Part shown: in pieces, positions 7,133 to 37,668 of the stretch
Numbering within the stretch: position 1 is the first letter of the stretch
Layout of the letters: the number at the start of each line of letters is the position of its first letter
The notes under the pieces: generated by a model
What the model saw: only the letters and a program-made list of their open reading frames with translations
The model's database searches: none
Told to the model about the DNA's origin: nothing
Position numbers and translations under genes: made by a program
NCBI GenBank assembly: GCA_013350285.1
Contig: JAAXWG010000004.1
Location: 62,001-126,000 of the forward strand
Source of the DNA: Candidatus Altimarinota bacterium
GTDB taxonomy: Bacteria; Patescibacteriota; Gracilibacteria; BD1-5; UBA6164
Direction of reading: 5' to 3'
Length of the DNA: 64,000 bases

Positions 7133-9004
7133 TTAATACATCTCCTTATTATAACACTCTTCACAATAGACTATCTCAGGTCTTTCAGGAGCATAAGTTG
7201 TCTGTATTTCTTTTCCACACTTATCACAGTTCCTTGTATAAAGATGTCTTGGATTTCTTAAACTCATCCTATCAAGATGTCTTTGGTCTGGATGTCTTCT
7301 CGGTATAGGAAGATTATGTTTTCTATAAAAAGCGAGTTCTTCTTTTATTATTCTAAAAGGTTTCTTAGTAACTTCGCATTCAATAGCCCAGTTCAAAATA
7401 TCATCAGGAATATCTGCAATATTTTCAGGAAGCTTACTTGCAGGAATAATTTTTTCTACCTTAGGAAAAGGAGCTTCATAAGTAGACCATTTAAAGACTG
7501 GTCTTTCTCAAGCTTCTTCTAGAGTTTTATAAACAGTTCATTCTCTATCAATATAATTTATTTCTCACTCAAGACCGGTCTCAGAAGAAATGTTTTCATT
7601 TTGATAGATTCCTGCCTTCGCAGGAATGACATCTCTACGAGTAAGAGGATAATATTCTTGAGCAACTGTTTCATTATAGCCAAAAGGACTAAGAGAACTA
7701 GGAAAAAATTCTCCCCATTCTCAAGTCTTCATCATGTGTTCTATGATTTTTGGAACAAGAACTTCATATTCACTTTTCGTATATTGTTTATTGAGGATAC
7801 AATATTCTTTTCACACAAGTCAATTACACATAAAAGAATTTTTCGTCCTTTTACATTCTGTACAATAAATAAGATTTTCACAATTATTCCAACAATCATA
7901 ACAAAAAATTATATTATAACATGTTTTATTTATAAGGGCTGTATCATAAATTTTGAAACTATCATTTAATACAACATTTACATCAAAACAATCTCGAGCA
8001 TTACTATGGACATAATAAGAATATTTTATATTTTCTGAATCATAGACTTCAAAACTATTTTTTACATTTTTTGAATTAAAAATCACATTTCATAAAATAT
8101 TTTCAGAATTTCTTATAAGTAAACTTTGAATAGGAAACTTAAGTTTAAATTTTAAAAAATCTTTCAGAGAATAAGAATTATTTTTAATATTTTGAATTTC
8201 TTTTTTATAATCATTTTCAGAATATTCTTTATTAAAAATGCAATAAGATTTATTATTTAAATTTACACAACAAAAACAATTATGGCAATCATTACAATTA
8301 AATAAAAATTGAGAATCAGAACATTCGTTACAATTTTGTAAGTATTGAGAATTATAACAATATATAGAATCTATTATAGAATAACAATAACTACAATCTC
8401 TAGAGTAAGAAATATCAATACAATTAGTACATCTTACAACTCAGCTTCCATAAAAACAATTTTCATCTCCATTTGAATCAAAAATCAAATAACAATTTTT
8501 ACTTGCTCAAAGCAAGTTTGTATATTCACATTTTTCAGTTCATGTTCATTTTACAAGAGCTCTTTTGGGTACTACTTTTAATAATTCTTTAAATTGAGCA
8601 AAAAAACTTTTTTCAAAATTTATTTTCAAAAAATAATCTTCTATTTTCCAATTATCACTCCACCAAAAATCTAAATCATAAACAGTAAAATTTTTATCAG
8701 GACTAAAAATGGAAATAATCGTTTTTTTTATTTTATTACACTCTCTTTTATACAAATTTCTATCATTTCTCCAAGAAAGTCTTCTTTGGTTTCTACAATC
8801 AGGACAAAGAGTAGGAGAGGGGATAAGGTATTTAATTTTTCCGTTTTCAAGCAACTTCAACCCCGGGGTTGAAAAAGAAACCCCGGGGTTTGGGAATACT
8901 GGACTTACTTTTTCATAAAATTCCAAGTCTTTATCAGTAATATCAAAACTTGTTCCACAATGTCTGCAAATTTTTGTTTCTACTATTTTTTCGTTTTGAA
9001 ACAT
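7133..9004 (-). CDS. Cysteine-rich solenoid protein, paralogue A
   Basis: 623 aa. The N-terminal zinc-ribbon-like module has CRHCG near residue 13 and LCPDCRNQRR near 67-76, then a KREC motif. Next comes an aromatic module (FWWSDNW). The long middle is built on 12-residue units with Cys at positions 1 and 10 (for example CYSIIDSIYCYN). It is punctuated twice by a block ending in YCI-x-NK-x-Y. The C-terminus has a second ribbon, NCDKCGKE and VYCEECYN. There is no signal peptide. The family appears in CPR genomes as hypothetical zinc-ribbon proteins, and the function is unknown. Two palindromic DNA repeats are translated in frame (7606-7632 and 8856-8893). Confidence 0.85.
7606..7632. repeat. 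In-frame palindromic repeat (VIPAKAGI type)
   Basis: GATTCCTGCCTTCGCAGGAAT is a hairpin element of a kind common between genes. Here it is translated on the minus strand as VIPAKAGIYQ inside solenoid paralogue A. Copies occupy the same protein position in paralogues E (20890-20916) and F (22851-22877). A free intergenic copy is at 52970-52995. Confidence 0.8.
8856..8893. repeat. In-frame CCCCGGGG double palindrome
   Basis: Two AACCCCGGGGTT palindromes joined by GAAAAAGA, translated on the minus strand as FPNPGVSFSTPGLK. Equivalent copies lie in paralogue C (12577-12614), E (22148-22187) and a mutated copy in F (24138-24178). Confidence 0.75.
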
Positions 9005-9071: not shown

Positions 9072-10709
9072 TTAATACATCTTTTTTTCATATTCTTCCT
9101 TACTTATAATATTTTTGTATCATAAACTTGGAGGATAATAGTGAGTAATTTCTTTTCCACTTATATTACATTTTGAAATATAAGGCTTTATATAAGACAA
9201 AGGCATATATTTTTCTTTCATTCTTTCTATATGGCTTATATTAGGAAGGGCTATATTATTTTTCTGGTGAAATTCTATTGCTTCTTTGGAAAAATTAAAT
9301 GGTTTATTTGTTTTTTTACATAAAATTGCTTTTGATGCAAAATCTGTGGAAATATCTTTTATATCATCCAGTAATTCAAATATTTCTCCTCAAAATTCTT
9401 TTTCCTCATCTTCTTCCCAATATCATCATAATCCTAAAACTTCTTCTTTTTCAAGAGGGAAATAAATGATCGCAAGAGTTGTGTTATATCAACTATACAT
9501 CATAGTATATGGAAAAAAGTTTCAAAAAATTCAAATATTCCTCATATTTTCTTCAATTTTTTTTATAGTTTTTTCATATTCTTCTTTTGTATATTGCTTA
9601 TTTAATATACAAAATTCTTTATTTTTTAATCCAACACAGCCAAAACAATATGAACAATTACTACAATTATCAAGATAAGAACTTTCTTTACAATTTCCAC
9701 AATAAGAAGAATATTTGAGATTATAAACATAGCTTGATTGATTAACCATATAGCATTTTTCTCCCTCAAGAAGACCCGAACAATTCATACTATTTTTATT
9801 TTTATATCCTCGTATTACATTGATACAATCCTCACTTTCCTCAAGAAGAAAACAATTTTCACAATTTTTGCAGTTTGTAAGAAAATTTCAGCTACTTTTT
9901 TCACAAGATACATTGATATTTTCTGTAAAGTAAGAATTTTCCTTTAAATGTTCATTAAATCATTTTTTGAGTTTTTCAATTTCTTGTCTTGATCAAAAAT
10001 TATATTTTTTTATAAATTTTTCATATTCTTCTTGAGTATACTGTTTATTGAGAATACAATATTCTTTATCTCTCAAATTCCAACACATAAAACAATTTTT
10101 TACATTTCTACAATCAGATAAAAACATGCTTTCTGAACTATTTTTTATATTAAATCCATAAAAAACTTTATAACAATGTGAACTAAGAGTCATATCGTGA
10201 CAATTTTCCATAAAATGGCAATATATAATATCAGAACAGTAAGAACAATCAATATTTCTATAACTATAAAAAATAGACTCACAGTTAAGCATAGAAAGAG
10301 AAAGATAACAATTTTTTGAACTCCATACATCATCACAATAATCACAATTTTCTTGGTTTTTTCCAAGCATATGTGGTCTTGGGGTTTTTTCTTGTAATTC
10401 TTTTATTTGTTTAAATATATTTTTTGAAAAATCTACACTCAAAAAAGGAGGAGACCAACTATCTGATTCAAAATATTTATATTTATAGATAGGAAATCTT
10501 GCATTTTCTGGATACATTGTCACGATTGTTTCTCATGAAAAATCACATTTTCTTTTATACCATTTTCCTATGGATGGCCAAAAAGAGAGGAGTCATTGCC
10601 AAGCACAATCTGTGCATATCTCTTCTTGTATTCATATACTTGTTTTTATTTTTTCTTCTAAAGGGCTTTCAATAATTACCTTTTTACAATTTTTACATTT
10701 TTTTTCCAT
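9072..10709 (-). CDS. Cysteine-rich solenoid protein, paralogue B
   Basis: 545 aa and more diverged than A, C, E and F. The N-terminal ribbon has CKNC near residue 5 and CTDC about 30 residues later, followed by YKRKCDFSG. The middle carries the same Cys-rich units (NCDYCDDVWSSKNC, CRNVKNCFMC) and two copies of the YCILNKQYT-x-EEYEK block. The C-terminal region keeps the KPFNFSKEAIEF and ISGKEITHYYPP features but lacks the paired CxxC ribbon. It carries none of the palindromic insertions seen in its neighbours. It lies 68 nt downstream of nothing else on its strand except A. The function is unknown. Confidence 0.8.
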
Positions 10710-10835: not shown

Positions 10836-12725
10836 CTAATAAATTTCCCTATTATAACATTCTTCACAATAGACTATCTCAGGTCTCTCAGGAGCATAAG
10901 TTGTCTGTATTTCTTTTCCACACTTATCACAGTTCCTTGAATAAAGATGTCTTGGATTTCTTAAACTCATCCTATCAAGATGTCTTTGGTCTGGATGTCT
11001 TCTTGGAATGGGAAGATTATGCTTTCTATAAAAAGCTAATTCTTCTTTTATTATTCTAAAAGGTTTTTTAGTTACTTCACACTCAATAGCCCAGTTCAAA
11101 ATATCATCAGGAATATCTGTAATATTTTCAGGAAGCTTACTTGCAGGAATAATTTTTTCTCCCTTAGGAAAAGGAGCTTCATAAGTGCTATATTTAAAGA
11201 CCGGTCTTTTTCAAGCTTCTTCAAGAGTATTATAAGTATTTCATTCTCTATCAATATAATTTATTTTTCACTCAAGACCGGTCTTAGAAACCTCAGGATT
11301 TATCGGATAATATTCATTTGCAACGGTTTCATTGTATCCAAAAGGAGAGAGAGAACTTGGAAAGAATTCTCACCACTCTTGCTCCCCCTGCTTCACTATC
11401 GCTCAGCTTTCCCCCTCAATTGAGGGGGATTTAGGGGGAGTCATCATATGTTCTATAATTTTTGGAACAAGTATTTCATATTCTTCTTTAGTATATTGTT
11501 TATTGAGGATACAATAGGATTTATTTTTGAGTCAGACACATCAAAAGCAGTTTGATGTATTATTTACACAATCATAACAATAGAGTAAATTATTTATATT
11601 ATTTATACAAAAAGCTGAAAATGTAGTTTTTGAAACTCATTTTCCTATTTTATAACAATCATAACAATTTTCAGCAGTTTCTCCCCAGTCATAAACATCA
11701 TAACAATTTTGGGCTTCAAAAAGCCATCAAACATATTTACAATCTTTACAATGAGAAATATCATAACCATTATTAATATTTTGACTATTTATAATATATT
11801 CTCAATTACAATTTTCACTTCCTTTATTTTTATTATTTTTTTGAGGAATTTTTTTACCTATATTTTTAAATTCTTTTTGAATTTTTTCAAAAAAGAAAGT
11901 ATCGGTTTCTAATTTTTTATAAAGTATTTCATATTCATCTCTTGAGATTTGTTTATTAAGAAAGAAAAAATCTTTCCCTACAATATCACTACAAAAAATA
12001 CAATTTTTACAATTGAGTAAGTTTTTTGAATAAAAACAACTTTTACAGTCTTTTGAATTTTGAATATAAAAACAAGAATAACAATATAGGCTATCAACAA
12101 CAAAATAACAATTTTCTAAATATTGTGAATAAAGGCAATCCATAGAGTTTTTTGAGTATCGTAAGCCTTGTGAATAATAACAATCTTCATCATATCAAGA
12201 AAGAGTCATAAGATGGCAATTCTTTATCCATCAACAATAGTTTACATAAGGAGAATTTTCAAGTTTTTCTGTACTGAGAGAAATTTTTGGAACCTTTTTC
12301 AATATATCATTAAATTGTGTAAAAAAACTTCTACTAAAATCAAAATCTTTTCCATAATCAAGTGCTTCCCATTTATCACTCCACCAAATTTCTTGTTCAT
12401 AGACTTTGTAAGGTTTATCTGGTGAATATATTGAAATAATATCTTTGCCACTTGCATCACATTTTCTTTTATAAAGTTTTCTCACATTAGCAAAACTCAG
12501 TCTTCTTTGTTCTCTGCATTGGTGGCAGAGAGTAGGAGGAGGAATGAGGTATTTTATTTTTCCGTTTTCAAGCAACTTCAACCCCGGGGTTGAAAAAGAA
12601 ACCCCGGGGTTTGGGAATACTGGACCTATCTTTTCATAAAATTCTAAATCTTTGTCTGTGATATCAAAACCTACCCCACAATGTATACAAATACGAGTTT
12701 CTATGATTTTTTCTTTTTGATTCAT
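10836..12725 (-). CDS. Cysteine-rich solenoid protein, paralogue C
   Basis: 629 aa. The N-terminal ribbon is CIHCG...LCHQCREQRR, followed by YKRKCDASGKDI and the EIWWSDKW motif. The clearest 12-residue repeat of the cluster lies here: CYFVVDSLYCYS, CFYIQNSKDCKS, CFYSKNLLNCKN in direct succession. A first block ends in FFFLNKQ and a second in YCILNKQYTKEEYE. The C-terminal ribbon (NCDKCGKE, CEECYN) is nearly identical to A and E at protein and DNA level. A repeat at 11380-11440 is inserted in frame between EHMM and EWGEFF. The function is unknown. Confidence 0.85.
11380..11440. repeat. In-frame CCCCCTCAATTGAGGGGG palindromic repeat
   Basis: A GC-rich hairpin (core CCCCCTCAATTGAGGGGG) translated on the minus strand as TPPKSPSIEGES and following residues within paralogue C. 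Paralogues A and E lack it at this site, where they read HMMKTGEWGEFF. F has a different repeat at the same site (22966-23003). Confidence 0.8.
12577..12614. repeat. In-frame CCCCGGGG double palindrome (paralogue C copy)
   Basis: Same sequence and same protein position as the element at 8856-8893. Confidence 0.75.
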
Positions 12726-13620: not shown

Positions 13621-15171
13621 TTAAATTTTAAACCCCATTTTTATCCTTTCAAGCCAATGAACTTCAGGAAGAGGAAGTCCATATTTCATCAAAAAGTCAT
13701 ATTCCATCGGAACAATTTTATAATAATTTCCATCATTGTCAATAATTACTTTTTTTAATATTTCTGGATTTATTTTCCAATTTCCGTTTTCGTCAAAGCC
13801 TTGATAATCATTTAATCCCCCTGCCTTCGCTCCGCTTTGGCTGTCCCCCTTAATAAGGGGGATGTCCGATAGGACTGGGGGATTTTTTGCATACACAATC
13901 TCAGCTCATTCAGGAATATCAACTTTTATTTTTTCATCTCTCCACATAAATCCTTCTTTTCCTACTTCTTCTTTAGTGAAACTATCATCAATTAGGTAAG
14001 CCATCGTATCATTGAAATAAAAAGGATTGAGACTTCATGGGAAAAAATCTCACAAGATTCAGTCTTTTTCCATAGAAGCAAATATTTTATCAGCGAGTTC
14101 ATACCATTCTTCTTTTGAATATTGTTTATTGAAGATACAAAAAGATTTATTTTTGAGTCAAATACACCCAAGACAAAAAGAACAATCACTTATATTAAGA
14201 CTGTAATAAATATTTGAAGACATTCCTATAGAATCACATATATAGATATTTTGAGCCGTTCAAGAAGAGCATGCTCCTGCATAATCATAAGAAACTCAAG
14301 ATCCACCAACACAAACATCATACATTCTTTCATCTCATTTTTCTGATCAGGTGAGAATAAGATTTCTTCCTTCTTTTACTTGATAGACTTTTACTCCATT
14401 TATAATATTTTCTGAGTCAATGATAAAACTTCAAGAAATAGAGCTACTTCAAAAATTTTTCCCATATTTTTCACTTTTTATTTTTCCTAAATTTTTTTTA
14501 TTTCTTAGAATTTCTTTTTTCTTGTTAAAATATATTTCTTTTTCATAACTTTTATTTTCTATACAATACTTTTGATTTTCCAAATCTTCACAAAAAATAC
14601 ATTCTTCACATCCAATCAAATTTCTACTCATCCATATATTATTTGAATTAATAATAAAATCAGAAAAAAATATATTATAGGATTTTATTATAGAGGCAGA
14701 AGAATAAATATTAGAAGAATTATCCCAAATATGTACACCATTAAATACATTATGGCAATTTCCTTTTGTTCCAAGAGTATAATAAATATTTTCATTATCC
14801 CATACGGAATTGAAACTTAAGTAAACATTTTTTGTATTATATGTAATATCTGCATATTCACATTTTTCTGTTCATCCGTAATCCATCAGATTTGGGAATG
14901 GTATTTCTTTTTTAAGTAAAGCAATATTTTCAAAAAAATCCTTCTCAAAATCATAATCTCTTCCATAGTGAGTAAGGCTTTCTCTTTCTTGTTCAAATTG
15001 TTTTGTTGAAATAATATTAGATCTTGTTGTTGGAGGAAAACGAGAAATAAGATTTTGATTTTTATAAAGATTAAGAGGCATCCAAGAGACAATTTCTTGT
15101 AAAAATTCTCTCCAAGGAGTAGATTTTCTTTTTTCTTTAATTTTATCTTCCCAAATTTTGAGCGATTGCAT
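13621..15171 (-). CDS. Cysteine-rich solenoid protein, divergent paralogue D
   Basis: 516 aa. The start lacks the zinc ribbon of A, C, E and F and begins with a charged helix (SLKIWEDKIKEKRK). The FEKDFFENIALLKKEIPFPNL segment matches the pre-solenoid region of the family. The middle keeps the blocks CEECIFCEDLENQKYCIENK and CSFCLGCIGLKNKSFCIFNK, but with fewer cysteines. The C-terminus is different, ending ...EYDFLMKYGLPLPEVHWLERIK. A palindromic repeat at 13814-13886 is inserted in frame near the C-terminus. A distinct subfamily; function unknown. Confidence 0.8.
13814..13886. repeat. In-frame palindromic repeat in paralogue D
   Basis: CCCCCTTAATAAGGGGG core flanked by AATCCCCCTGCC and GGGGGATT arms. 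On the minus strand it is translated as PPVLSDIPLIKGDSQSG and following residues. The element looks like a mobile intergenic hairpin placed in frame. Confidence 0.75.
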
Positions 15172-20417: not shown

Positions 20418-22298
20418 TTAATAAATTTCTTTATTATAACACTCTTCACAATAGACTATCTCAGGTCTTTCAGGAGCATAAGTTGTCTGTATTTCTTTTC
20501 CACACTTATCACAATTCCTTGAATAAAGATGTCTTGGATTTCTTAAACTCATCCTATCAAGATGTCTTTGGTCTGGATGTCTTCTTGGTATGGGAAGATT
20601 ATGCTTTCTATAAAAAGCGAGTTCTTCTTTTATTATTCTAAAAGGTTTTTTAGTTACTTCACACTCAATAGCCCAGTTCAAAATATCATCAGGAATATCT
20701 GCAATATTTTCAGGAAGCTTACTTGCAGGAATTATTTTTTCTACCTTAGGAAAAGGAGTTTCATAATTACTCCATTTAAAGACCGGTCTTTCTCAAACTT
20801 CTTCAAGAGTTTTATGAGTATTTCATTCTCTATCAATATAATTTATTTCTCACTTGAGACCGGTCTCAGAAGAAATGTTTTCATTTTGATAGATTCCTGC
20901 CTTCGCAGGAATGACATCTCTACGAGTAAGAGGATAATATTCTTGAGCAACGGTTTCATTGTAACCAAAAGGACTAAGAGAACTAGGAAAAAATTCTCCC
21001 CATTCTCATGTTTTCATCATGTGTTCTATAATTTTAGGAACAAGGATTTCATATTTTTCTTTGGTATATTGCTTATTGAGGATGCAGTATTTTTTATATT
21101 TTAATCAAACACATAAAAAACAATATTCACAATAGACACACAAATCAGTATAATAACCATTTCTACATCAAAAACTTTTTGCAGTAAATGCACATTGGTA
21201 CATATTATCTCATCATCCAGAAATTTCATAACAAAGTTCCGCTTCTCACCAAGAAAAGAAATCCATACAATCTTTTCATTTCATAAACCAAGTACAATTT
21301 TTACAATCTTCAGCAGTATTTGCATCATAACAGTTGCTAAGATTTTTTGAATTATGAATAAAATCTCAAGTTACATTATAATTATTTATTCCATTGAGAT
21401 ATTTTCTTGGAGAAGATAAAGCAAGTTTGTTAAATTCTTTTATAAAATCATTTTGTAGTTTCCCATTTTTTATAATCTCTGCTTTCTTTTTTAAATACTC
21501 TTCTTTAGGATATTTTTTATTAAGAATATGATATTCGTTATTTCTTAATCAAATACATCAGATACATTCTTTACATCAAAGACAATCAATTATATTATTA
21601 CAATCATTACAATCTTTACTATTAAATCAATAAAATACCTTGAAACAATTATCAAGATTTACTGATTCATAACAAGATTTTGAATGAATAGTTAAAAAAC
21701 AATCTATACAATCCTTATCATAACTTATATAAGTAGAGTACATACAGTTTTCATCATCATTTGCTCAAAAAATAAGATAACAATTTTTTAGATCACCACT
21801 ACAATTTGTATATTCTGAATTTTCCATCCTATCTTCACTATAACAAAATCTATGTAATCTTGGAATATTCTCAGAAACTTCATTGAGTTGCTCAAAGATA
21901 GGTCTTGAAAAGTCTACATCTTTTCATTGATTCAAGCCATCCCAAGAATCGCCCCACCAATATTTATTATGAAAAACTTTTAAATTTTTATCAGGAGAAT
22001 ACATTGAAACTAAATCAATTCAAGAAAAATCACATTTCCTTTTGTAGATTTTTCTTTCATTTCTCCAAGTCATTCTTCTTTGCTCTCTGCATTGAGGGCA
22101 GAGAGTTGGAGAAGGAATAAGATATTTAATTTTTCCATTTTCAAGCAACTTCAACCCCGGGGTTGAAAAAGAAACCCCGGGGTTTGGGAATACTGGACTT
22201 ACTTTTTCATAAAATTCCAAATCTTTGTCTGTGATATCAAAACTTGATCCACAATGTTTACAAGTTTTTGTTTCTACTATTTTTTCATTTTCAAACAT
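20418..22298 (-). CDS. Cysteine-rich solenoid protein, paralogue E
   Basis: 626 aa. The N-terminal ribbon CKHCG...LCPQCREQRR is nearly the same as A and F, followed by YKRKCDFSG and YWWGDSW. The middle mixes 12- and 15-residue Cys units (CFLTIHSKSCYE, CNNIIDCLGCKE, CIGCIGLRNNEY) and two NK-x-Y blocks. The C-terminal third, from HMMKTGEWGEFF to CEECYNKEIY, is almost identical to A. It carries the VIPAKAGIYQ insertion (20890-20916) and the CCCCGGGG element (22148-22187). The function is unknown. Confidence 0.85.
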
Positions 22299-22377: not shown

Positions 22378-24282
22378 TTAATAAACCTCTTTATTATAAC
22401 ACTCTTCACAATATATTACCTCAGCTCTCTCAGGAGCATAAGTTGTTTGTATTTCTTTTCCACATTTATCACAATATCTTTTATAAAGATAAAATTTATT
22501 CCTTTGTTCTAATAATTCTTGGTATCTTACATCAAAATGTTTATTAGGAATAGAAATTCAATTTTTTATATAAAATACTAATTCTTGTTTTGTTATTTTA
22601 AAAAGTTTTTTAGTTACTTCACACTCAATAGCCCAGTTCAAAATATCATCAGGAATATCTGCAATATTTTCAGGAAGCTTACTTGCAGGAATTATTTTTT
22701 CTACCTTAGGAAAAGGAGCTTCATAATTACTCCATTTAAAGACCGGTCTTTCTCAAACTTCTTCAAGAGTATTATAAATAGTTCATTCTCTATCAATATA
22801 ATTTATTTCTCAATCAAGACCGGTCTCAGAAGAAATGTTTTCATTTTCATAGACTCCTGCCTTCACAGGAATGACATCTCCGCGAGTAAGAGGATAAAAA
22901 TCATTTGCTATTGTTTCATTGTATCAAAAAGGAGAAAGAGAACTTGGAAAAAATTCTCCCCACTCTCTTACCCCCTCTCCTGCACGAGAGGGCTGGGGTG
23001 AGGACATATATTCTATGATTTTTGGAACAAGTATTTCATATTCTTCTTTCGTATATTGTTTATTGAGAATGCAGTATTCTTTACTTTTTAATCATACACA
23101 TCAAAAACAATTTTTACAAGAATTAACACAAAGAAAACAGTAATACATATCAGAACAATCGCCCCAATTTCCTATATTAAAAGCTGATTTATAGATATTT
23201 GATCATGTCATTACTGATTCATACACAAGAGACGAATTATCTCAATAAATGTCATAATCCTGACAATCTTTTGTATTATTGAAAATATAAAAGCAATTTT
23301 TACAATTTTCTATATCATCTACATTGTAACATTTTTTTATATTTTTACTATTATAAATATAATCTCAAGAAAAATTTTCATTATTTCTTCACCAATAGTA
23401 TTTTTTAGGAAATTTCTTAGAAAAAATACTACTTTTTTCATATATTTCACTTATTCCAAAATTTTTCATAGTTTGAGTAACTAATTCTTCATATTTTTCT
23501 TTTGAGTATCTTTTATTAAATGCATAATATTCTTTTCCAATCAAATTGTTACAACAAAAACATTTTTTACATTGAATACAATTATTCAAAAACATTCATT
23601 CTGAACAAGTATCAGAATTTCTAGAATATTTTAAATCATATGATTTATAGCAGTTAAAACATCTGTAACAATTTTCACATTCTGTGAGCATATAACAGTC
23701 TATGATATTTTTTGAATTAACACAAGTATAGGAATAGTAAGAATCTTCTAAATAATCACTATTAAAACATAAATAACAATTTTTTAGATGGGAAACTCAA
23801 TTTGTATAATCACTATTTTCAATATTATTCGTTGCCATTCTAGAAATATGTGGAACACTTTTTAAAAGTTCTTGAAATTGATCAAAAAAAGTTTTACTAA
23901 AATCAAAATCTTTTCAATAATCGAGAGCATCCCATTTATCACTCCACCAAATTTCTTGGTCATACACTTTGTAGGGTTTATCAGGAGAATAAATAGAAAT
24001 AATATCTTTACCACTAAAATCACATTTTCTTTTATAGAGATTTCTTTCATTTCTCCAAGCGAGTCTTCTCTGTTGTCTGCAATGAGGACAAAGAGTTGGA
24101 ACGGGGATGAGGTATCTTATGTTTCCATTTTCAAGCAACTTCAACCCCATGGTTGAAAAAGAACCCCCGGGGTTTGGGAATATTGGACTTACTTTTTCAT
24201 AAAATTCCAAATCTTTGTCTGTGATATCAAAATTCGCTCCACAATGCTTACAAGTTTTTGTTTCGACTATTTTTTCTCACAT
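22378..24282 (-). CDS. Cysteine-rich solenoid protein, paralogue F
   Basis: 634 aa, starting MGEKIVETKTCKHCG. The N-terminal ribbon is completed by LCPHCRQQRR, then YKRKCDFSGKDI and EIWWSDKW. The middle has Cys units such as CIQCKKCFCCNN and CFLCVNSCKNCFGC. The C-terminal ribbon is CDKCGKE and YCEECYNKE. It holds three in-frame repeats: a CCCCTCTCC/GGAGAGGGG-type insertion at 22966-23003 (SSPQPSRAGEG), the VIPAKAGI type with a substitution (VIPVKAGVYE), and a mutated CCCCGGGG element. Its start is only 2 nt from the stop of the LysE-like gene. The function is unknown. Confidence 0.85.
22966..23003. repeat. In-frame repeat at the EHMM/EWGEFF site of paralogue F
   Basis: TACCCCCTCTCCTGCACGAGAGGGCTGGGGTGAGG-like hairpin, translated as SSPQPSRAGEGVR on the minus strand. 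It is unrelated in sequence to the repeat at the same position in paralogue C. Confidence 0.75.
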
Positions 24283-31358: not shown

Positions 31359-33260
31359 ATGTCAAAAAAATTTAATTTTGAAGCAGAAACAGGAAGAGTC
31401 CTTGAGCTTTTGACTCATTCTATTTATTCAAATAAAGAAATATTTTTAAGAGAACTTATTTCCAATGCAAGTGATGCTATTGATAAAGCTCGTCTTAAAT
31501 CTTTGACGGATGCGACTTTTTTATGAGAAAATACCAAGTTTGAAATAAAAATCTGGAAAGATAAAGAAAAAAATATTATCTATCTTGAAGACAATGGTAT
31601 TGGGATGACAGAAGAAGAATTACACAGTTGTATAGGAACGATTGCAAAATCAGGAACAAAAGAATTTTTAGAAAAATTAAAAAAAGCAAAAGAAGATGGA
31701 GAACATAATCTCATTGGGCAATTTTGAGTTGGATTTTATAGTGCTTTTATGGTTGCTGATAAAGTCCAAATAGATACAAAATCTCCTCTGGATACCAAAG
31801 CACATAGATGGCTTAGTGATGGAAAAAGTGAATATGAAGTAAGTGAAAGTGAGAGACAAGCAAGAGGAACGATTATTACTCTTTTTATTGATGAAGCAAA
31901 TAAGGAACTTTTGGAAGAATGGAAAATAAAAGAACTTATAAAAAAATATTCAAACTATGTGGCATTTCCAATACTCCTTCAAGTAGAAAAAGAAGAAAAA
32001 GCAGAAGAGGGAAAAGAAGCAAAAAAAGAGCTTGTATGGGAGCAGATAAATGAAACAAAACCAATTTGGCAAAAATCAAAAAATGAATTAAAAAAAGACG
32101 ATTATAATAAATTTTATACAGAAATAAGTTATGATTTCAAAGAGCCACTTACTTATACTCACATCAATGTAGAGTGAGCAGTAAGTTATAAGTCTATACT
32201 TTTTGTTCCAGAAGAAAAAAATATGTTTGTAAATATTGCTGATCCAAATACTGAATATGGATCAAAACTCTATGTTCAAAATGTACTTATTTTGGAGCAT
32301 GCAAAAGATTTGCTTCCTGTATGGCTCAGATTTGTTTCTTGAGTTGTTGAAACTCAAGATATTCCTCTCAATATCAGTCGTGAAATGCTTCAATCAAATA
32401 GTGTACTTGAGAAAATCAAGAAAAATCTCATAAAAAAAGTGCTTGGAGAACTCCAAAAATCTATGAAAGAAAATAAAGAAAAATATGATATATTTTTATC
32501 TCATTTTTGAAATATTCTCAAAGAATGAATTTATTATGATACAGAATTAAAAGAAGAAATTGCAGGAGTGATAAAATTTAAATCAATGCTTGAAAATAAA
32601 ATGATTTCTCTTGATGAATATAGAGAAAAATTAGGAGAAAAAGATGAATTAAAAACCATTTTTTACATTACAGGAAAATCTGAACAAGAAGTTTTGGCAA
32701 GTCCTTATATTGCTCAATTTAGAGAAAATAAAGTAGATATATTATTACTGACTAATCCCATAGATGAATGGCTTATACAAAGTCTTCCTCAATATAAAGA
32801 ATATAAGCTCAAATCTATAACAGCAAGTGATATAGAACTCAAAAAGGCAACAGAAGAAGAAATAAAAGAGCAAGAAACCACAAAAAAAGATTTCAAAGAT
32901 TTACTTGAGCTTATAAAAAATACAATAGGAGCAGAAAAAATAGAAAAAGTAGAGCTTTCTGATAAAATCGGGGAAAATGTAGGAGCATTAAAAACTCCTG
33001 AAAATGGTCTTACTCCACAAATGGAGAAAATGATGAAAGCAATGGGACAAAGTATGGGAAAACAAAAAAGAATTTTTGAGCTTAATCCAAAAAATGAAGT
33101 GGTGCAGATGATGAAGCAAGAATTTGAGAAAGATCTAAAATCAGAAAAACTCAAAGATATGATTCTTTATGCATACGAGCAAGCAATTCTTCTTGAATGA
33201 GGAGAGCTTGAAAATGTTGCTGAGTTTGTAAAAAGGGTCAATAAATTTGTAGGAAAGTAA
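31359..33260 (+). CDS. htpG: Molecular chaperone HtpG (Hsp90)
   Basis: 633 aa, full length. The GHKL ATP-binding motifs are [10 protein letters not shown] (N-box, near residue 36), [10 protein letters not shown] (G1) and [15 protein letters not shown] (G2, with a UGA glycine). The middle domain carries [19 protein letters not shown], the Hsp90 catalytic-loop signature. The C-terminal dimerisation region is present. It is an ATP-driven dimeric chaperone. The CIRCE-like site suggests heat-shock control. A clean terminator follows. Confidence 0.96.
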
Positions 33261-33271
33261 AAGGAAATATT

Positions 33272-33303
33272 AAAAAAGGAATGAAAACTCATTCCTTTTT
33301 TAA
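33272..33303 (+). terminator. htpG terminator
   Basis: AAAAAAGGAATGA/TCATTCCTTTTTT perfect stem with a 4-nt loop and T tail. Confidence 0.8.
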
Positions 33304-33637
33304 ACTTTTTTTAAACTCTCTTTGTTATAATGCTCGTGCTTTCAAAAAATGTAATTACAGGAAGCTTGAAAGTTTTATCATTATATAAGAGGAAAATATT
33401 TAAAATAATTTTAAAAATATTAAAATTAAAAAATTTAAAATTTATTTAAAGTCCTTCTGATATAATGTCCCTACTTAAAATTTTTATAAAACAAAAACAA
33501 AATTTTTTAAGTAATACAGTTAAGAAAGGATATAAATTTTTGAAGTACAGTTACATATGAAAATTTATATAAAAAACCGTCTCTTTCAGATTTTATCCTT
33601 TCTCAAAAATTTATTTTATATTTTTAAAAACAAATAT
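33304..33637 (+). other. Long gap upstream of the secreted protein, possible structured leader
   Basis: No gene. Two TATAAT sequences lie at 33326-33331 and 33461-33466. Downstream of the second, GAAAGGATA (33524-33532) can pair with TATCCTTTC (33594-33602) over a 61-nt AT-rich loop. The transcript leader would be about 170 nt, unusually long for this compact genome. Confidence 0.45.
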
Positions 33638-34441
33638 ATGAACAAAAAAAATATCATTCTTACATCATCTGCATGATTAGTGCTTGCTTCTCTTTTAGCT
33701 TGAAGCTTTGCTTTTGCAGATTCTTCAACAGGAGCAGTAGAAAATACTTTACTAAATAAAAATGTAAAACAAAATATGCAAACTTGAAAATGAGAAAAAA
33801 GAGAAATTCCAGCATTTATAAAAAATCTTCCAGAGGCAACTCAAGAGAAACTAAAAACATTGCAAGAAACTCATAGAGAAGAAGCTAAAGCAATTTTTGA
33901 TACTTACAAAGATAGTGAAAAAACAGATGCAATACAAGAAGAAATAGATGCAAAAATGGAAGCTCTTCAGACAAAACACAAAGCTGAATTAACAACACTT
34001 TTAAATTGAGTGGATGGAGCAGAAGATTTCATTGCTAAAATGTGAGAAGGTCCAAAAGGTATGGGAAGATGACATTTTGAATGAAGATGAATGTGAGAAA
34101 AAAGAGAAGTTCCAGCATTTATAAAAAATCTTCCAGAGGCAACTCAAGAGAAACTAAAAACATTGCAAGAAATTCATAGAGAAGAAGCTAAAGCAATTTT
34201 TGATACTTACAAAGATAGTGAAAAAACAGATGCAATACAAGAAGAAATAGATGCAAAAATGGAAGCTCTTCAGACAAAACACAAAGCTGAATTAACAACA
34301 CTTTTAAATTGAGTGGATGGAGCAGAAGATTTCATTGCTAAAATGTGAGAAGGTCCAAAAGGTATGGGAAGATGACCAAGAAATATGGATGGAGAACATT
34401 TTGAAAAAGCACAAAATCAAGCTGATGATTCAGCAGAATAA
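33638..34441 (+). CDS. Secreted protein with tandem internal duplication
   Basis: 267 aa. A signal peptide is clear (short Lys-rich start, hydrophobic core SAGLVLASLLAGSFAFA, cleavage after AFA). The mature part is two copies of a helical unit, starting EKREIPAFIKNLPEATQ and ending GEGPKGMGRG, about 94 residues each with a 101-residue period. They differ by about two residues. Helices are rich in Lys, Glu and Ala (EEIDAKMEALQTKHKAELTT). The shape recalls small periplasmic helical metal/stress sensors of the CpxP/Spy type, but the diagnostic LTxxQ motifs are absent. The next genes are a two-component system. Confidence 0.75.
33791..34376. repeat. 303-bp tandem duplication inside a gene
   Basis: 33791-34073 and 34094-34376 are nearly identical 283-bp segments at a 303-bp period. 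I see only two base differences (AAATTCC/AAGTTCC and AAACTCAT/AAATTCAT). The unit keeps the reading frame. Confidence 0.9.
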
Positions 34442-34466: not shown

Positions 34467-34504
34467 AAAAAAGAGAGATAAAGAGAGATTATCTCTCTTT
34501 TTTT
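34467..34504 (+). terminator. Terminator after the secreted protein gene
   Basis: AAAGAGAGATAA/TTATCTCTCTTT stem with a T-rich tail. Confidence 0.75.
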
Positions 34505-34525
34505 AAATTTGTTTTAAACAAAAAT

Positions 34526-34556
34526 TTGTAAAATGCTAAGAGAATAGTACTATAAT
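34526..34556 (+). promoter_or_regulatory. Likely promoter of the two-component system
   Basis: TTGTAA (34526-34531), 19-nt spacer, TATAAT (34551-34556). The ATG follows 21 nt later. Confidence 0.45.
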
Positions 34557-34577: not shown

Positions 34578-35243
34578 ATGAAAATACTTATCGTTGAAGA
34601 TCATCCAAAAATTAGAGAAAATATTATTAAGTTTTTTACTCTTAAATCTTATGTCGCTGAATGAGCATTTAATTGAGAAGAGGCTCTAACTAAACTTTCT
34701 AATTCTTCTTATGATATTATTATCCTTGATATAAATCTTCCTATTATGAATGGAAAAGATTTTTTGAAAATCTTGAGAGAAAAAGGAAATGGGGTTCCTA
34801 TTATTGCTTTGACTTCAAATAGTATGCTTGAAGATAAACTTGAACTTTTTGATTTATGAGTGGATGACTATCTTACAAAACCTTTTGAGCTTCTTGAACT
34901 TGAAGCAAGAGTGAATGCTCTTTTTAAGAGAAAAGATAAGCTTATGGAACAAAAAATACTTGTAAGAGATTTGGAAATAAATTTTTCAAAACATAAAATA
35001 TTTAAATGAAAAGAAGAAATAAATATTTCAAACAAAGAATACTTAATTATAGAATTTCTTGTAAAAAATGCTTGACTTCCAAAAAATAAAACAGAGATAC
35101 TTGAATATGCATGGTGAGAAAGAGAGGATAATCTTAATTTTAGTAGTGTTACTCTTGAGGCTCATATTTCCTATATCCGTAAAAAATTTTGAAAAGATTT
35201 TATAAAAACAATTAAATGAGTTGGTTATGTTATCGATAAATAA
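34578..35243 (+). CDS. OmpR-family response regulator
   Basis: 221 aa. The receiver domain has the acidic pair in LIVEDH near residue 7, phospho-acceptor Asp51 in IIILDINLP, a switch residue in ALTSN, and Lys101 in YLTKPFE. The C-terminal winged helix has NKEYLIIEFLV and VTLEAHISYIRKKFG, with the final KGVGYVI typical of the OmpR/PhoB class. Its stop overlaps the histidine kinase start by 17 nt, so the pair is co-translated. The target genes are unknown; the secreted protein just upstream is one candidate. Confidence 0.93.
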
Positions 35244-36465
35244 ATATTTTAAATCTGAGGAAAAACTTCTTGCAATAAAAATTAGTTCTATTGCATTTTT
35301 GGGGCTTGTTCTTTGTTTGACTTTTCTTATATCTTTAAATGGTCTTTATCTTGTTGCTTCTGAAAAATGAAAATTTCTTGAAGATATAGGACTTTTTAAT
35401 AAAACTTTGGAAGAATATCCTCTTCCATTTCTTGCATGAGAAAGGGATTTTCTCAATCCATTTTGAGCATGAAAAAGGGATTTTATGGAAAAATCTCAAA
35501 GAAGACCTATTTTAGAAAGACTTATGAGAGATTCTATTATTATAGAAAAATCATGAACAATGAAAAAAATGGGAATTTTTGAATATATAGAAGTAGGGGA
35601 TGATATAATATGAGATAATGATGGAGATGGAGATGATATATTTGCAAAGAATATAGATGATAGAAGATTTCTTTTGTATCATTTGGATCTTTGAGATAAT
35701 AATGTTATTTTTTCTCGTGATATTAGTTATATTTCTTTTTTTCAAAGTCGTCTAATTATTAATTCATTTCTTCTTTGAATTATATTTTTTATAATTATTT
35801 ATCTTATTTCTCTTAGACTTGCACACCTTACTATTGCCCCAATAACTGAAAATAATAAAAAATTAAAAGAATATAATCATAATCTTGCTCATGAACTCAA
35901 AACCCCCCTCAGTGTTATGGGCTCAAATCTTGAAATATTTAGTATATCACCTGATACAACTCTTATTTCTTCCTCAAGAGAAGAAATAAAGTCAATGGAA
36001 CAAATTATTAATTCACTTTTATTCCTCAGTGAAAATAGTATCATAAAAGAAAAAGAAAAAATTAATTTTTGAACTTTATTAAAAGAGCTTATAGAAGAAC
36101 AGAATACAGAAAAAAAGATTCATTTTGAACAAAAAGATAAAAAAGTTTTTATAGAAACAGATCCAATCTTACTCAAAAGACTTATAAAAAACTTGCTTGA
36201 AAATGCTATAAAATATTCCCTTGAGGATACTATTTTTGTTATTCTTTCAAAGAAAAATCTCATCATAAAAAATAAGACAAATATGATTGTAAACAATGAT
36301 GAAATCAAAAATTTATTGGAGCCTTTTTATCAGCTTGATACATCAAGAAATACTCACTGATATTGACTCGGACTATCTATAGTAAAAAGAATTTGTGAAA
36401 CTTTTTCTTGGAATATAGAACTTAAGATAGAAGAAGGATTTTTTGTAGTAAATATTGATTTTTAG
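35227..36465 (+). CDS. Sensor histidine kinase
   Basis: 412 aa. Two membrane helices flank an extracytoplasmic region of about 150 residues (first helix IKISSIAFLGLVLCLTFLI, second FFLLGIIFFIIIYLI). The external loop has an unusual acidic run, GDNDGDGDD, that could bind cations. The phospho-acceptor is His222 in the H-box NLAHELKTPLSV. The ATPase has the N-box NLLENAIKYS near residue 322 and the G-box HGYGLGLSIVKRI. No HAMP domain is obvious. Partner: the response regulator immediately upstream. Confidence 0.9.
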
Positions 36466-36549: not shown

Positions 36550-37668
36550 ATGCAACAAAAAGTATTTATTTTGGGAGCTTCAGGAAATGTAGGAACAACA
36601 CTCATTAAGCAAATAGCTCAATATGATCAGGACGGAATTAAAAATATAAACCCAACTCATATTGTTGGAATGGCAAATAGTAAATATATGTTTGTTCATG
36701 ATAGGGGATTGTCTAAAAAACTTCTTTTATGACTCAAAGAAAAAAAAGATATAAAAGAATTTCTTAAAGAAAAGGGAGAAAAATATAGTAATAATGAAGA
36801 AATTTTAGAAAAAATAAAATTATATTGATATTTTGGTGAGCTTATAATTGTAGATGTTACGGCAGACAAAAATATTGTTGAATTTCATAAAAAAGTTTTA
36901 AGTAATAAATATCGCTTTAAACTGGTTACAGCAAATAAAAATCCTGTTTCTCTTGTAAATCAAGAAACTTTTGATTCTCTTACAAATAACCACGGAATTT
37001 ATGATTATAATACTGCAGTAATGGCATGAGGGTGAGTAGTAAATGAAATTAGAAGAGCAATTAATGCTCATGATATTATTCAATCAATAGAAGGATGTTT
37101 TTCAGGAACTCTTGGCTATATTGCATCTAAGCTTGAAGAAGGTATAGCTTTTTCTGAAGTTGTTAAGGATGCTTATGAAAAATGATATACAGAACCAAAT
37201 CCATGGGATGATCTTAATGGGCTTGATGTAGCAAGAAAGCTTATTATTTTAGTAAGAACAGCAGGATATAATGTAGAAATGGAAGATATAAAAGTAGAAC
37301 CATTTATTGATAAAAAATATGCTGAAGTACAAGGAGGAATAAATGATTTTCTTAAAGCAATACAAAAAGAAGATAAGAATTTTTCAGAAAAATATAAAGA
37401 AGCTTTTAAAAAATGAAATACTTTTAAATATGTTGCTTCTATGCAAAAAATAAAAGGAAAATTGTTATTACAGGTTGCTCTTAAAGAAGTTCCTCTCAAT
37501 TCACAAATAGGAAGTCTTAAAGGGACAAGTAATATTACAGTTATTTATACGGATATTTATAAAGATGAACCACATGTCATCATTGCTCCATGAGCAGGAC
37601 TAGAAAAAACAGCAAGAGGATTGAGAGATGCTATTGCAGATATGATACCGACTGATTTTTTAAGATAA
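36550..37668 (+). CDS. hom: Homoserine dehydrogenase (copy 2)
   Basis: 372 aa, a paralogue of the gene at 238-1386. The Rossmann fold is clear at the start (FILGASGNVGTTLIKQI). TANKNPV, GCFSGTLGYIASKL, and EPNPWDDLNGLDVARKL match the family in order. The C-terminal FKYVASMQKIKGKLLLQVALKEV segment is shared with copy 1. It uses far fewer UGA codons than copy 1 (about eight against twenty). No other threonine or methionine pathway genes are nearby. Two copies in a reduced genome is odd. Confidence 0.85.

Follow-up and report, generated by a model that had tools for sequence, protein, structure and literature searches.

CpxP of Escherichia coli K-12 damps its kinase. In the same species, the regulators ZraR, BaeR, and CpxR are described as controlling zraP, spy, and cpxP along with their own genes (PMC7657598), and Spy is presented as a chaperone that chlorite induces by way of BaeSR, with MsrPQ repairing its methionines (PMC12503329). 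At the promoter level, CiaR promoters of streptococci were predicted with the sequence TTTAAG, five bases, TTTAAG, ten bases, and TATAAT (PMC3091779), while the enterobacterial PmrA box is given as the half-sites CTTAAG and XTTAAT five bases apart (PMC3973317). For Gracilibacteria, the accessible text of PMC6851277 mentions two-component once and histidine kinase never. A literature search for DUF2202 together with two-component retrieved no paper, and wider searches retrieved none on such a system in candidate-phyla bacteria among the matches listed. To our knowledge, regulation in candidate-phyla bacteria with an altered genetic code is experimentally almost uncharted.

The stretch of DNA studied here (the window, 64,000 nucleotides) belongs to a 1.28-Mb genome that is 98% complete and distributed over 8 contigs, with a G+C content of the genome fragment of 26%. 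Gracilibacteria and Absconditabacteria use TGA as a glycine codon, and the genes of the window, including the neighbors of the gene at 33638-34441, are open only with this code (table 25). A table 11 reading of 33638-34441, with 13 in-frame TGA codons and no open reading frame of at least 80 amino acids, was rejected. Read with TGA as glycine, this gene (33638..34441, +) encodes a two-unit helical protein of 267 amino acids, single copy in the genome. A signal peptide of 27 amino acids (33638..33718, +), with a presumed cleavage site at ...SFAFA/DSS, was predicted by sequence inspection and a hydrophobicity rule, and the units are predicted to be helical, which bears out the sequence-only reading of a secreted helical protein. 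The mature protein (240 residues) has no cysteine and 6 histidines. Elsewhere in the window there are six large Cys-rich paralogues (7133-9004, 9072-10709, 10836-12725, 13621-15171, 20418-22298, and 22378-24282, −), most of them with near-identical ends and variable middles, and another copy of their N-terminal part is found in the same genome at G000:C5 near 138000 (L102). Two similar genes (238-1386 and 36550-37668, +), presumably homoserine-dehydrogenase-like, coexist in this one small genome.

Directly after the secreted-protein gene there is a two-component pair. The response regulator (34578..35243, +; 221 amino acids) is of the OmpR/PhoB type, with both domains over the Pfam cut-off (Response_reg, PF00072, E 6.9e-29; Trans_reg_C, PF00486, E 1.3e-14), and is followed by a membrane sensor histidine kinase with HisKA and HATPase_c domains in Pfam (35227..36465, +; the first ATG is at 35227, and the listed translation begins at a TTG start at 35221). 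The genome has one other kinase of the same kind. In that other kinase-regulator pair (G000:C4:149000-156000, L042), the kinase gene is followed by one for a secreted helical protein of 260 amino acids. This pair also has a TTTAAA-N5-TTTAAA box, lacking a −10 element at the right distance. Relatives were searched in 99 genomes, none from the genus of the window, and 75 of them had at least one match to the kinase. A contig scan with the secreted protein as query found no relative, and one with the response regulator found 7 loci. The nearest of these, with 40% identity, is on a contig of “Candidatus Absconditabacteria” and has no gene for a secreted protein directly upstream.

As in CpxP/CpxRA of E. 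coli K-12, a small secreted helical protein is found here beside an OmpR-type regulator and a kinase. However, cpxP is divergent, 149 bp from cpxR, whereas the window gene is co-directional and contains two near-identical units, and the two proteins have no detectable sequence similarity. ZraP of E. coli K-12 also adjoins its two-component genes, ZraSR, and is described as a direct target together with them, but the same source presents ZraR as a sigma-54-dependent regulator (PMC7657598), in contrast to the OmpR type of the window, and ZraP lacks sequence similarity as well. Spy, a secreted helical stress protein and target of BaeSR, shares these traits, although again without sequence similarity, and E. 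coli spy was not beside baeSR in the stretch examined. Of the traits of the Spy/CpxP family, the window gene has a signal peptide, adjacency to a two-component system, and probable control by it, the latter suggested by a shared promoter box (see below).

Membership in the known families was assessed by profile. No Pfam family reached its cut-off among 25 of the 33 matches listed for the secreted protein, and PF07813 (LTXXQ) was not among these 25. The NCBIfam CpxP model (NF009391) gave an E value of 7e-5 but only 22.8 of the 148 bits of its cut-off, and hhalign comparison of a profile of the repeat units (A1) with Spy, CpxP, and ZraP of E. coli returned probabilities of 1.3, 1.5, and 0.3, giving no indication of homology. 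The proposed kinship with Spy/CpxP is consequently not borne out by sequence. By analogy, the window system would work like those of CpxP, Spy, or ZraP, but the sequence tests place the protein in none of the families Spy, CpxP, ZraP, and Metal_resist.

The last of these families (PF13801) bears on another reading, namely, that the protein is mainly a periplasmic copper or zinc buffer of a metal-responsive system and not a chaperone. Metal_resist matched the secreted protein with 16.1 of the 29.2 bits required in Pfam, and weak sub-threshold matches of this kind were also seen at four relatives' loci (L044, L049, L052, and L080). In the same direction point an HxxE motif in each helix of the unit (HREEA and HKAEL), partner proteins with 12.5 to 13.5% Met at two loci (L059 and L060), and the second-best NCBIfam match of the regulator, the CzcR/SilR/CopR subfamily, below its cut-off. 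However, the best NCBIfam match, likewise below the curated cut-off, was PmrA (166.5 of 330 bits), the histidines are few and cysteine absent over the mature chain, and Metal_resist at an E value of 0.001 had matches in none of 98 relatives, versus 3 of 14 control genomes. We regard a dedicated metal buffer as unlikely and favor a stress protein of the CpxP/Spy/ZraP kind.

Within the gene, tandem repeat analysis (TRF) detected a repeat at 33791-34376 (period 303, 1.9 copies, 99% matches), with a score of 1158 that far exceeds the remaining 17 rows of the window. TRF and direct comparison placed copy 1 at 33791..34093 (+; 303 bp, 101 codons, in frame) and copy 2 at 34094..34376 (+; 283 bp). Each is predicted to form a hairpin plus a short helix (H66-90/H97-121 plus H128-135 and H167-191/H198-222 plus H229-236, respectively), and a Gly/Met-rich linker joins the two hairpins. 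Over 283 bp (33791-34073 versus 34094-34376), the copies differ at two bases, both of which change the amino acid (33806 A versus 34109 G, Ile to Val; 33870 C versus 34173 T, Thr to Ile), while the final 20 bp of copy 1 (34074-34093) have no counterpart in copy 2. The period of 303 bp and the two differences initially noticed were therefore confirmed, although the second copy extends over 283 bp only.

At the protein level, the copies are 98% identical over 83 residues. Relatives of the protein have one or two units, and in the 8 two-unit proteins that were aligned, the units of a protein are only 35 to 47% identical to each other. Given that two units are common in relatives, it is the near identity that is special to the window gene, pointing to either a recent re-duplication or gene conversion. 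The recent expansion that had been proposed is likely, although two older units that were recently homogenized would have the same appearance. Gene conversion that maintains the identity of an old pair, as the two-unit relatives might suggest, is in our view the less probable origin, since their units have diverged far more than those of the pair found here, the linker and flanks fit one additional in-frame copy, and a donor copy is absent elsewhere in the genome. The near-identical second unit thus likely arose by recent in-frame (re-)duplication of one unit.

With the whole protein as query, matches were found in 10 of 99 genomes at an E value of 0.01, most of them weak, while the unit profile A1 (14 units) reached 44 of 98 relatives and, in the window genome, a third, weaker hairpin protein (G000:C5:127370). 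Just past the window (L157:1514-2482, G000:C5), another secreted hairpin protein is encoded, and its C-terminal helical domain resembles that of the L043 and L075 partners. AlphaFold2, run on the single sequence without an alignment, modeled each unit as a long helical hairpin followed by a short third helix. Hairpins mostly had pLDDT values of 73 to 86 in a model with a mean pLDDT of 62.8 and a pTM of 0.32, and the N terminus, linker, and tail were disordered. As to the four-helix cradle fold of the Spy/CpxP family, fold searches (VIA and Foldseek) were uninformative, with generic helical matches only. Sequence searches of the PDB likewise yielded nothing usable. Neither Spy nor CpxP nor ZraP was among the matches listed in these searches, an absence that is no evidence.

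When the loci from which the profile was built are set aside, 47 hairpin-protein loci remain. Of these, 9 were within 3 kb of a kinase match, compared to 0.42 expected, a figure that is not corrected for genome relatedness. The other 38 had no kinase match within that distance, many of them on short contigs, as could be the case if the window protein were a surface or structural helical protein encoded beside two-component genes by chance. Such a coincidence seems to us very improbable, given that adjacency recurs and that both genes have the same box and promoter geometry.

This geometry was found in the regions upstream of the two genes. The gene at 31359-33260, which we take to be htpG, ends in a terminator-like hairpin, and a second terminator-like hairpin (34467..34503, +) is located between the secreted-protein gene and the regulator. 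Because it separates them into distinct transcription units, each gene has its own box. Two boxes TTTAAA-N5-TTTAAA precede the secreted-protein gene: box 1 (33299..33331, +; repeat at 33299-33315, −10 TATAAT at 33326-33331), which begins in the htpG terminator tail, and box 2 (33434..33466, +; repeat at 33434-33450, −10 TATAAT at 33461-33466). Box 3 (34502..34534, +; repeat at 34502-34518, −10-like TAAAAT at 34529-34534) precedes the response regulator and, like box 1, begins in a terminator-like tail. OmpR/PhoB response regulators bind half-sites arranged head to tail with a period of 11 bp. The arrangement has the geometry of streptococcal CiaR-activated promoters, in which a TTTAAG-N5-TTTAAG direct repeat is followed ten bases on by the −10 element (as described in PMC3091779 and PMC9603419), but the half-site in the window is TTTAAA(C), and lineage and regulon are different. 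It also resembles the PmrA box in the spacing of its half-sites, which nevertheless differ in sequence, and the similarity of the regulator to PmrA is below the curated cut-off.

The pattern was first spotted by eye in the window, so that the count of TTTAAA-N5-TTTAAA-N10-TANAAT there (3 matches, compared to 0.01 expected and with none of 100 shuffles reaching 3) is post hoc, and other genomes were therefore used as independent tests. In the whole 1.28-Mb genome, the same pattern had 3 matches, all of them before the secreted-protein gene (2) and the regulator (1), and the reversed control had none. A scan of the genome that allowed two mismatches showed no excess (53 matches versus 66 for the reversed pattern). 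Identical box/−10 geometry before both genes and nowhere else in the genome supports the view, already put forward from the sequence, that the secreted protein is a probable target of the adjacent system.

The box was then sought in relatives as YTTAAA-N5-YTTAAA within 250 bp upstream, leaving out the window. Two regulators at contig ends (L068 and L084) were dropped, and two others (L066 and L071, with 48.7 and 48.6% identity) were placed in the less similar group. Of 26 orthologous regulators, 11 had the box (shuffle mean, 0.20; maximum, 2), as did 6 of 15 of their partner genes (shuffle mean, 0.12). Among the less similar regulators, it preceded 1 of 20, and among other gene starts, 5 of 187. 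The single less similar regulator with a box was the second regulator of the window genome itself, without a −10 element at the right place. Before orthologous regulators, the box stands at a constant distance, and HIS is the core of the recognition helix in all 11 regulators that have a box, whereas the 4 scored regulators with HIY had none. In an AT-rich genome such as this one, where terminator-like tails contain the starts of boxes 1 and 3, the boxes might be by-products of these tails and not regulator sites. Dinucleotide shuffles, the uniqueness of the pattern in the whole genome, its recurrence at a constant distance, and its correlation with the recognition helix make this extremely improbable, and we interpret the boxes as putative sites of the regulator.

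At five sister-family loci, which have the most similar two-unit partner (L044 and L049 to L052), a box was seen only before some regulators and never before the partner, so that the partner is either not controlled everywhere or controlled from another site at these loci. The fixed N10 pattern gave only scattered sites in relatives, where the distance from the box to the −10 element is nine in many cases. Upstream of both partner and regulator at three other loci (L080, L081, and L087), we observed an apparent box of their own, approximately TTAA-N7-TTAA, with TTC before the second half and then TATAAT. The less similar regulators thus seem to have their own box.

We also compared what is encoded beside these regulators. 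From 150 kinase matches, 40 loci were fetched, comprising 28 of the 30 best (leaving out the window's own and one fetched separately) and 12 chosen from the following rows, and 7 further regions were added. With the window included, 31 regulators were at least 48.6% identical, and in 29 the upstream side was on the contig. A secreted protein of more than 180 amino acids was encoded directly upstream of, or divergent to, the regulator at 19 of these 29 orthologous loci (window included; L072 and L086 were added to the others afterwards), a short secreted protein or lipoprotein at 2, and no secreted neighbor at 8. The partners were helical in the window, L044, and L049 to L052 and of another helical type in L045, L066, L067, L071, L072, and L086. 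DUF2202 proteins were found in L053 and L061 (confirmed by Pfam) and in L055, L063, and L065 (by eye), and the Met-rich partners were those of L059 and L060; families beyond the Pfam-checked ones were assigned by eye. A helical partner was directly upstream in 8 of 18 less similar regulators. Unrelated proteins can thus occupy the place of the partner next to a single conserved sensor system.

The kinase has an acidic stretch, GDNDGDGDD (35611..35637, +), in its sensor region, and this stretch is indeed located outside the membrane, in the extracytoplasmic part. A special role of this loop was not supported, since none of the other 41 kinases in the comparison has the DxDxD pattern; that of L070 has a different acidic run. 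An EF-hand-like loop acting as a conserved calcium site was rejected, the stretch being present only here among the 42 kinases compared, and the acidic loop is not needed for the best explanation. Among the other kinases, those of L053, L055, L063, and L065, which are beside DUF2202 partners, have a very short Gly/Met-rich extracytoplasmic loop.

Taken together, we consider it reasonably probable that the secreted-protein gene is a target of the adjacent OmpR/PhoB-type system, which is autoactivated via TTTAAA-N5-TTTAAA, that its product is likely an envelope-stress protein of the CpxP/Spy/ZraP kind, and that its second unit is a recent in-frame duplication. In each of the two transcription units, the regulator would bind the direct repeat located ten bases ahead of the −10 element and would thereby activate the secreted-protein gene and its own. 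Outside the cytoplasm, the secreted protein would most likely bind damaged proteins, metal, or the sensor of the kinase, perhaps as a chaperone or metal buffer. It can probably be counted among the outputs of an envelope stress response, and the loop would sense this stress and feed back. By analogy with CpxP, the protein may damp the kinase, so that it is perhaps a feedback modulator of an autoregulated envelope-stress system.

A strict, unbiased scan of 60 genomes (YTTAAAC-N4-YTTAAAC, without a −10 element) found 25 sites in 17 genomes. The reversed pattern was commoner (40 versus 25), and the evidence is therefore in the location of the sites and not in their number. Orthologous regulators were preceded by 8 of the sites, secreted, lipoprotein, or envelope proteins by 9 (window gene included), and ferric-reductase-like proteins by 2, while 6 were elsewhere, 3 of them inside genes. 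In the window genome, the scan added two genes. One encodes a DUF2202 secreted protein (G000:C5:39139; DUF2202 E 8e-28). The other encodes a Met-rich membrane protein (G000:C4:91365), and after it come genes for an HlyD-type adaptor, an ABC ATPase, and a MacB permease. Another genome (G037) has a related box and then a comparable operon, downstream of which a rubredoxin/ferric-reductase/FAD protein and a ferredoxin-type lipoprotein are encoded.

The occurrence of ferric-reductase/rubredoxin domains and of MacAB pumps among the members fits a redox or methionine-stress response, and some kinase sensor loops are short and Met-rich. It is conceivable, although we propose it only tentatively, that in code-25 candidate-phyla bacteria an envelope regulon for redox or methionine stress is under the control of one conserved regulator and one conserved box, with an exchangeable secreted partner (helical hairpin, ferritin-like DUF2202, Met-rich, or lipoprotein) that changes with the kinase sensor loop. 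The window would then be the helical version, in which the stress-binding unit was recently doubled and its valency tuned. With a box of published geometry recurring before the same regulator in many genera, the regulon becomes open to testing, and several secreted proteins that lack a family assignment receive a first role.
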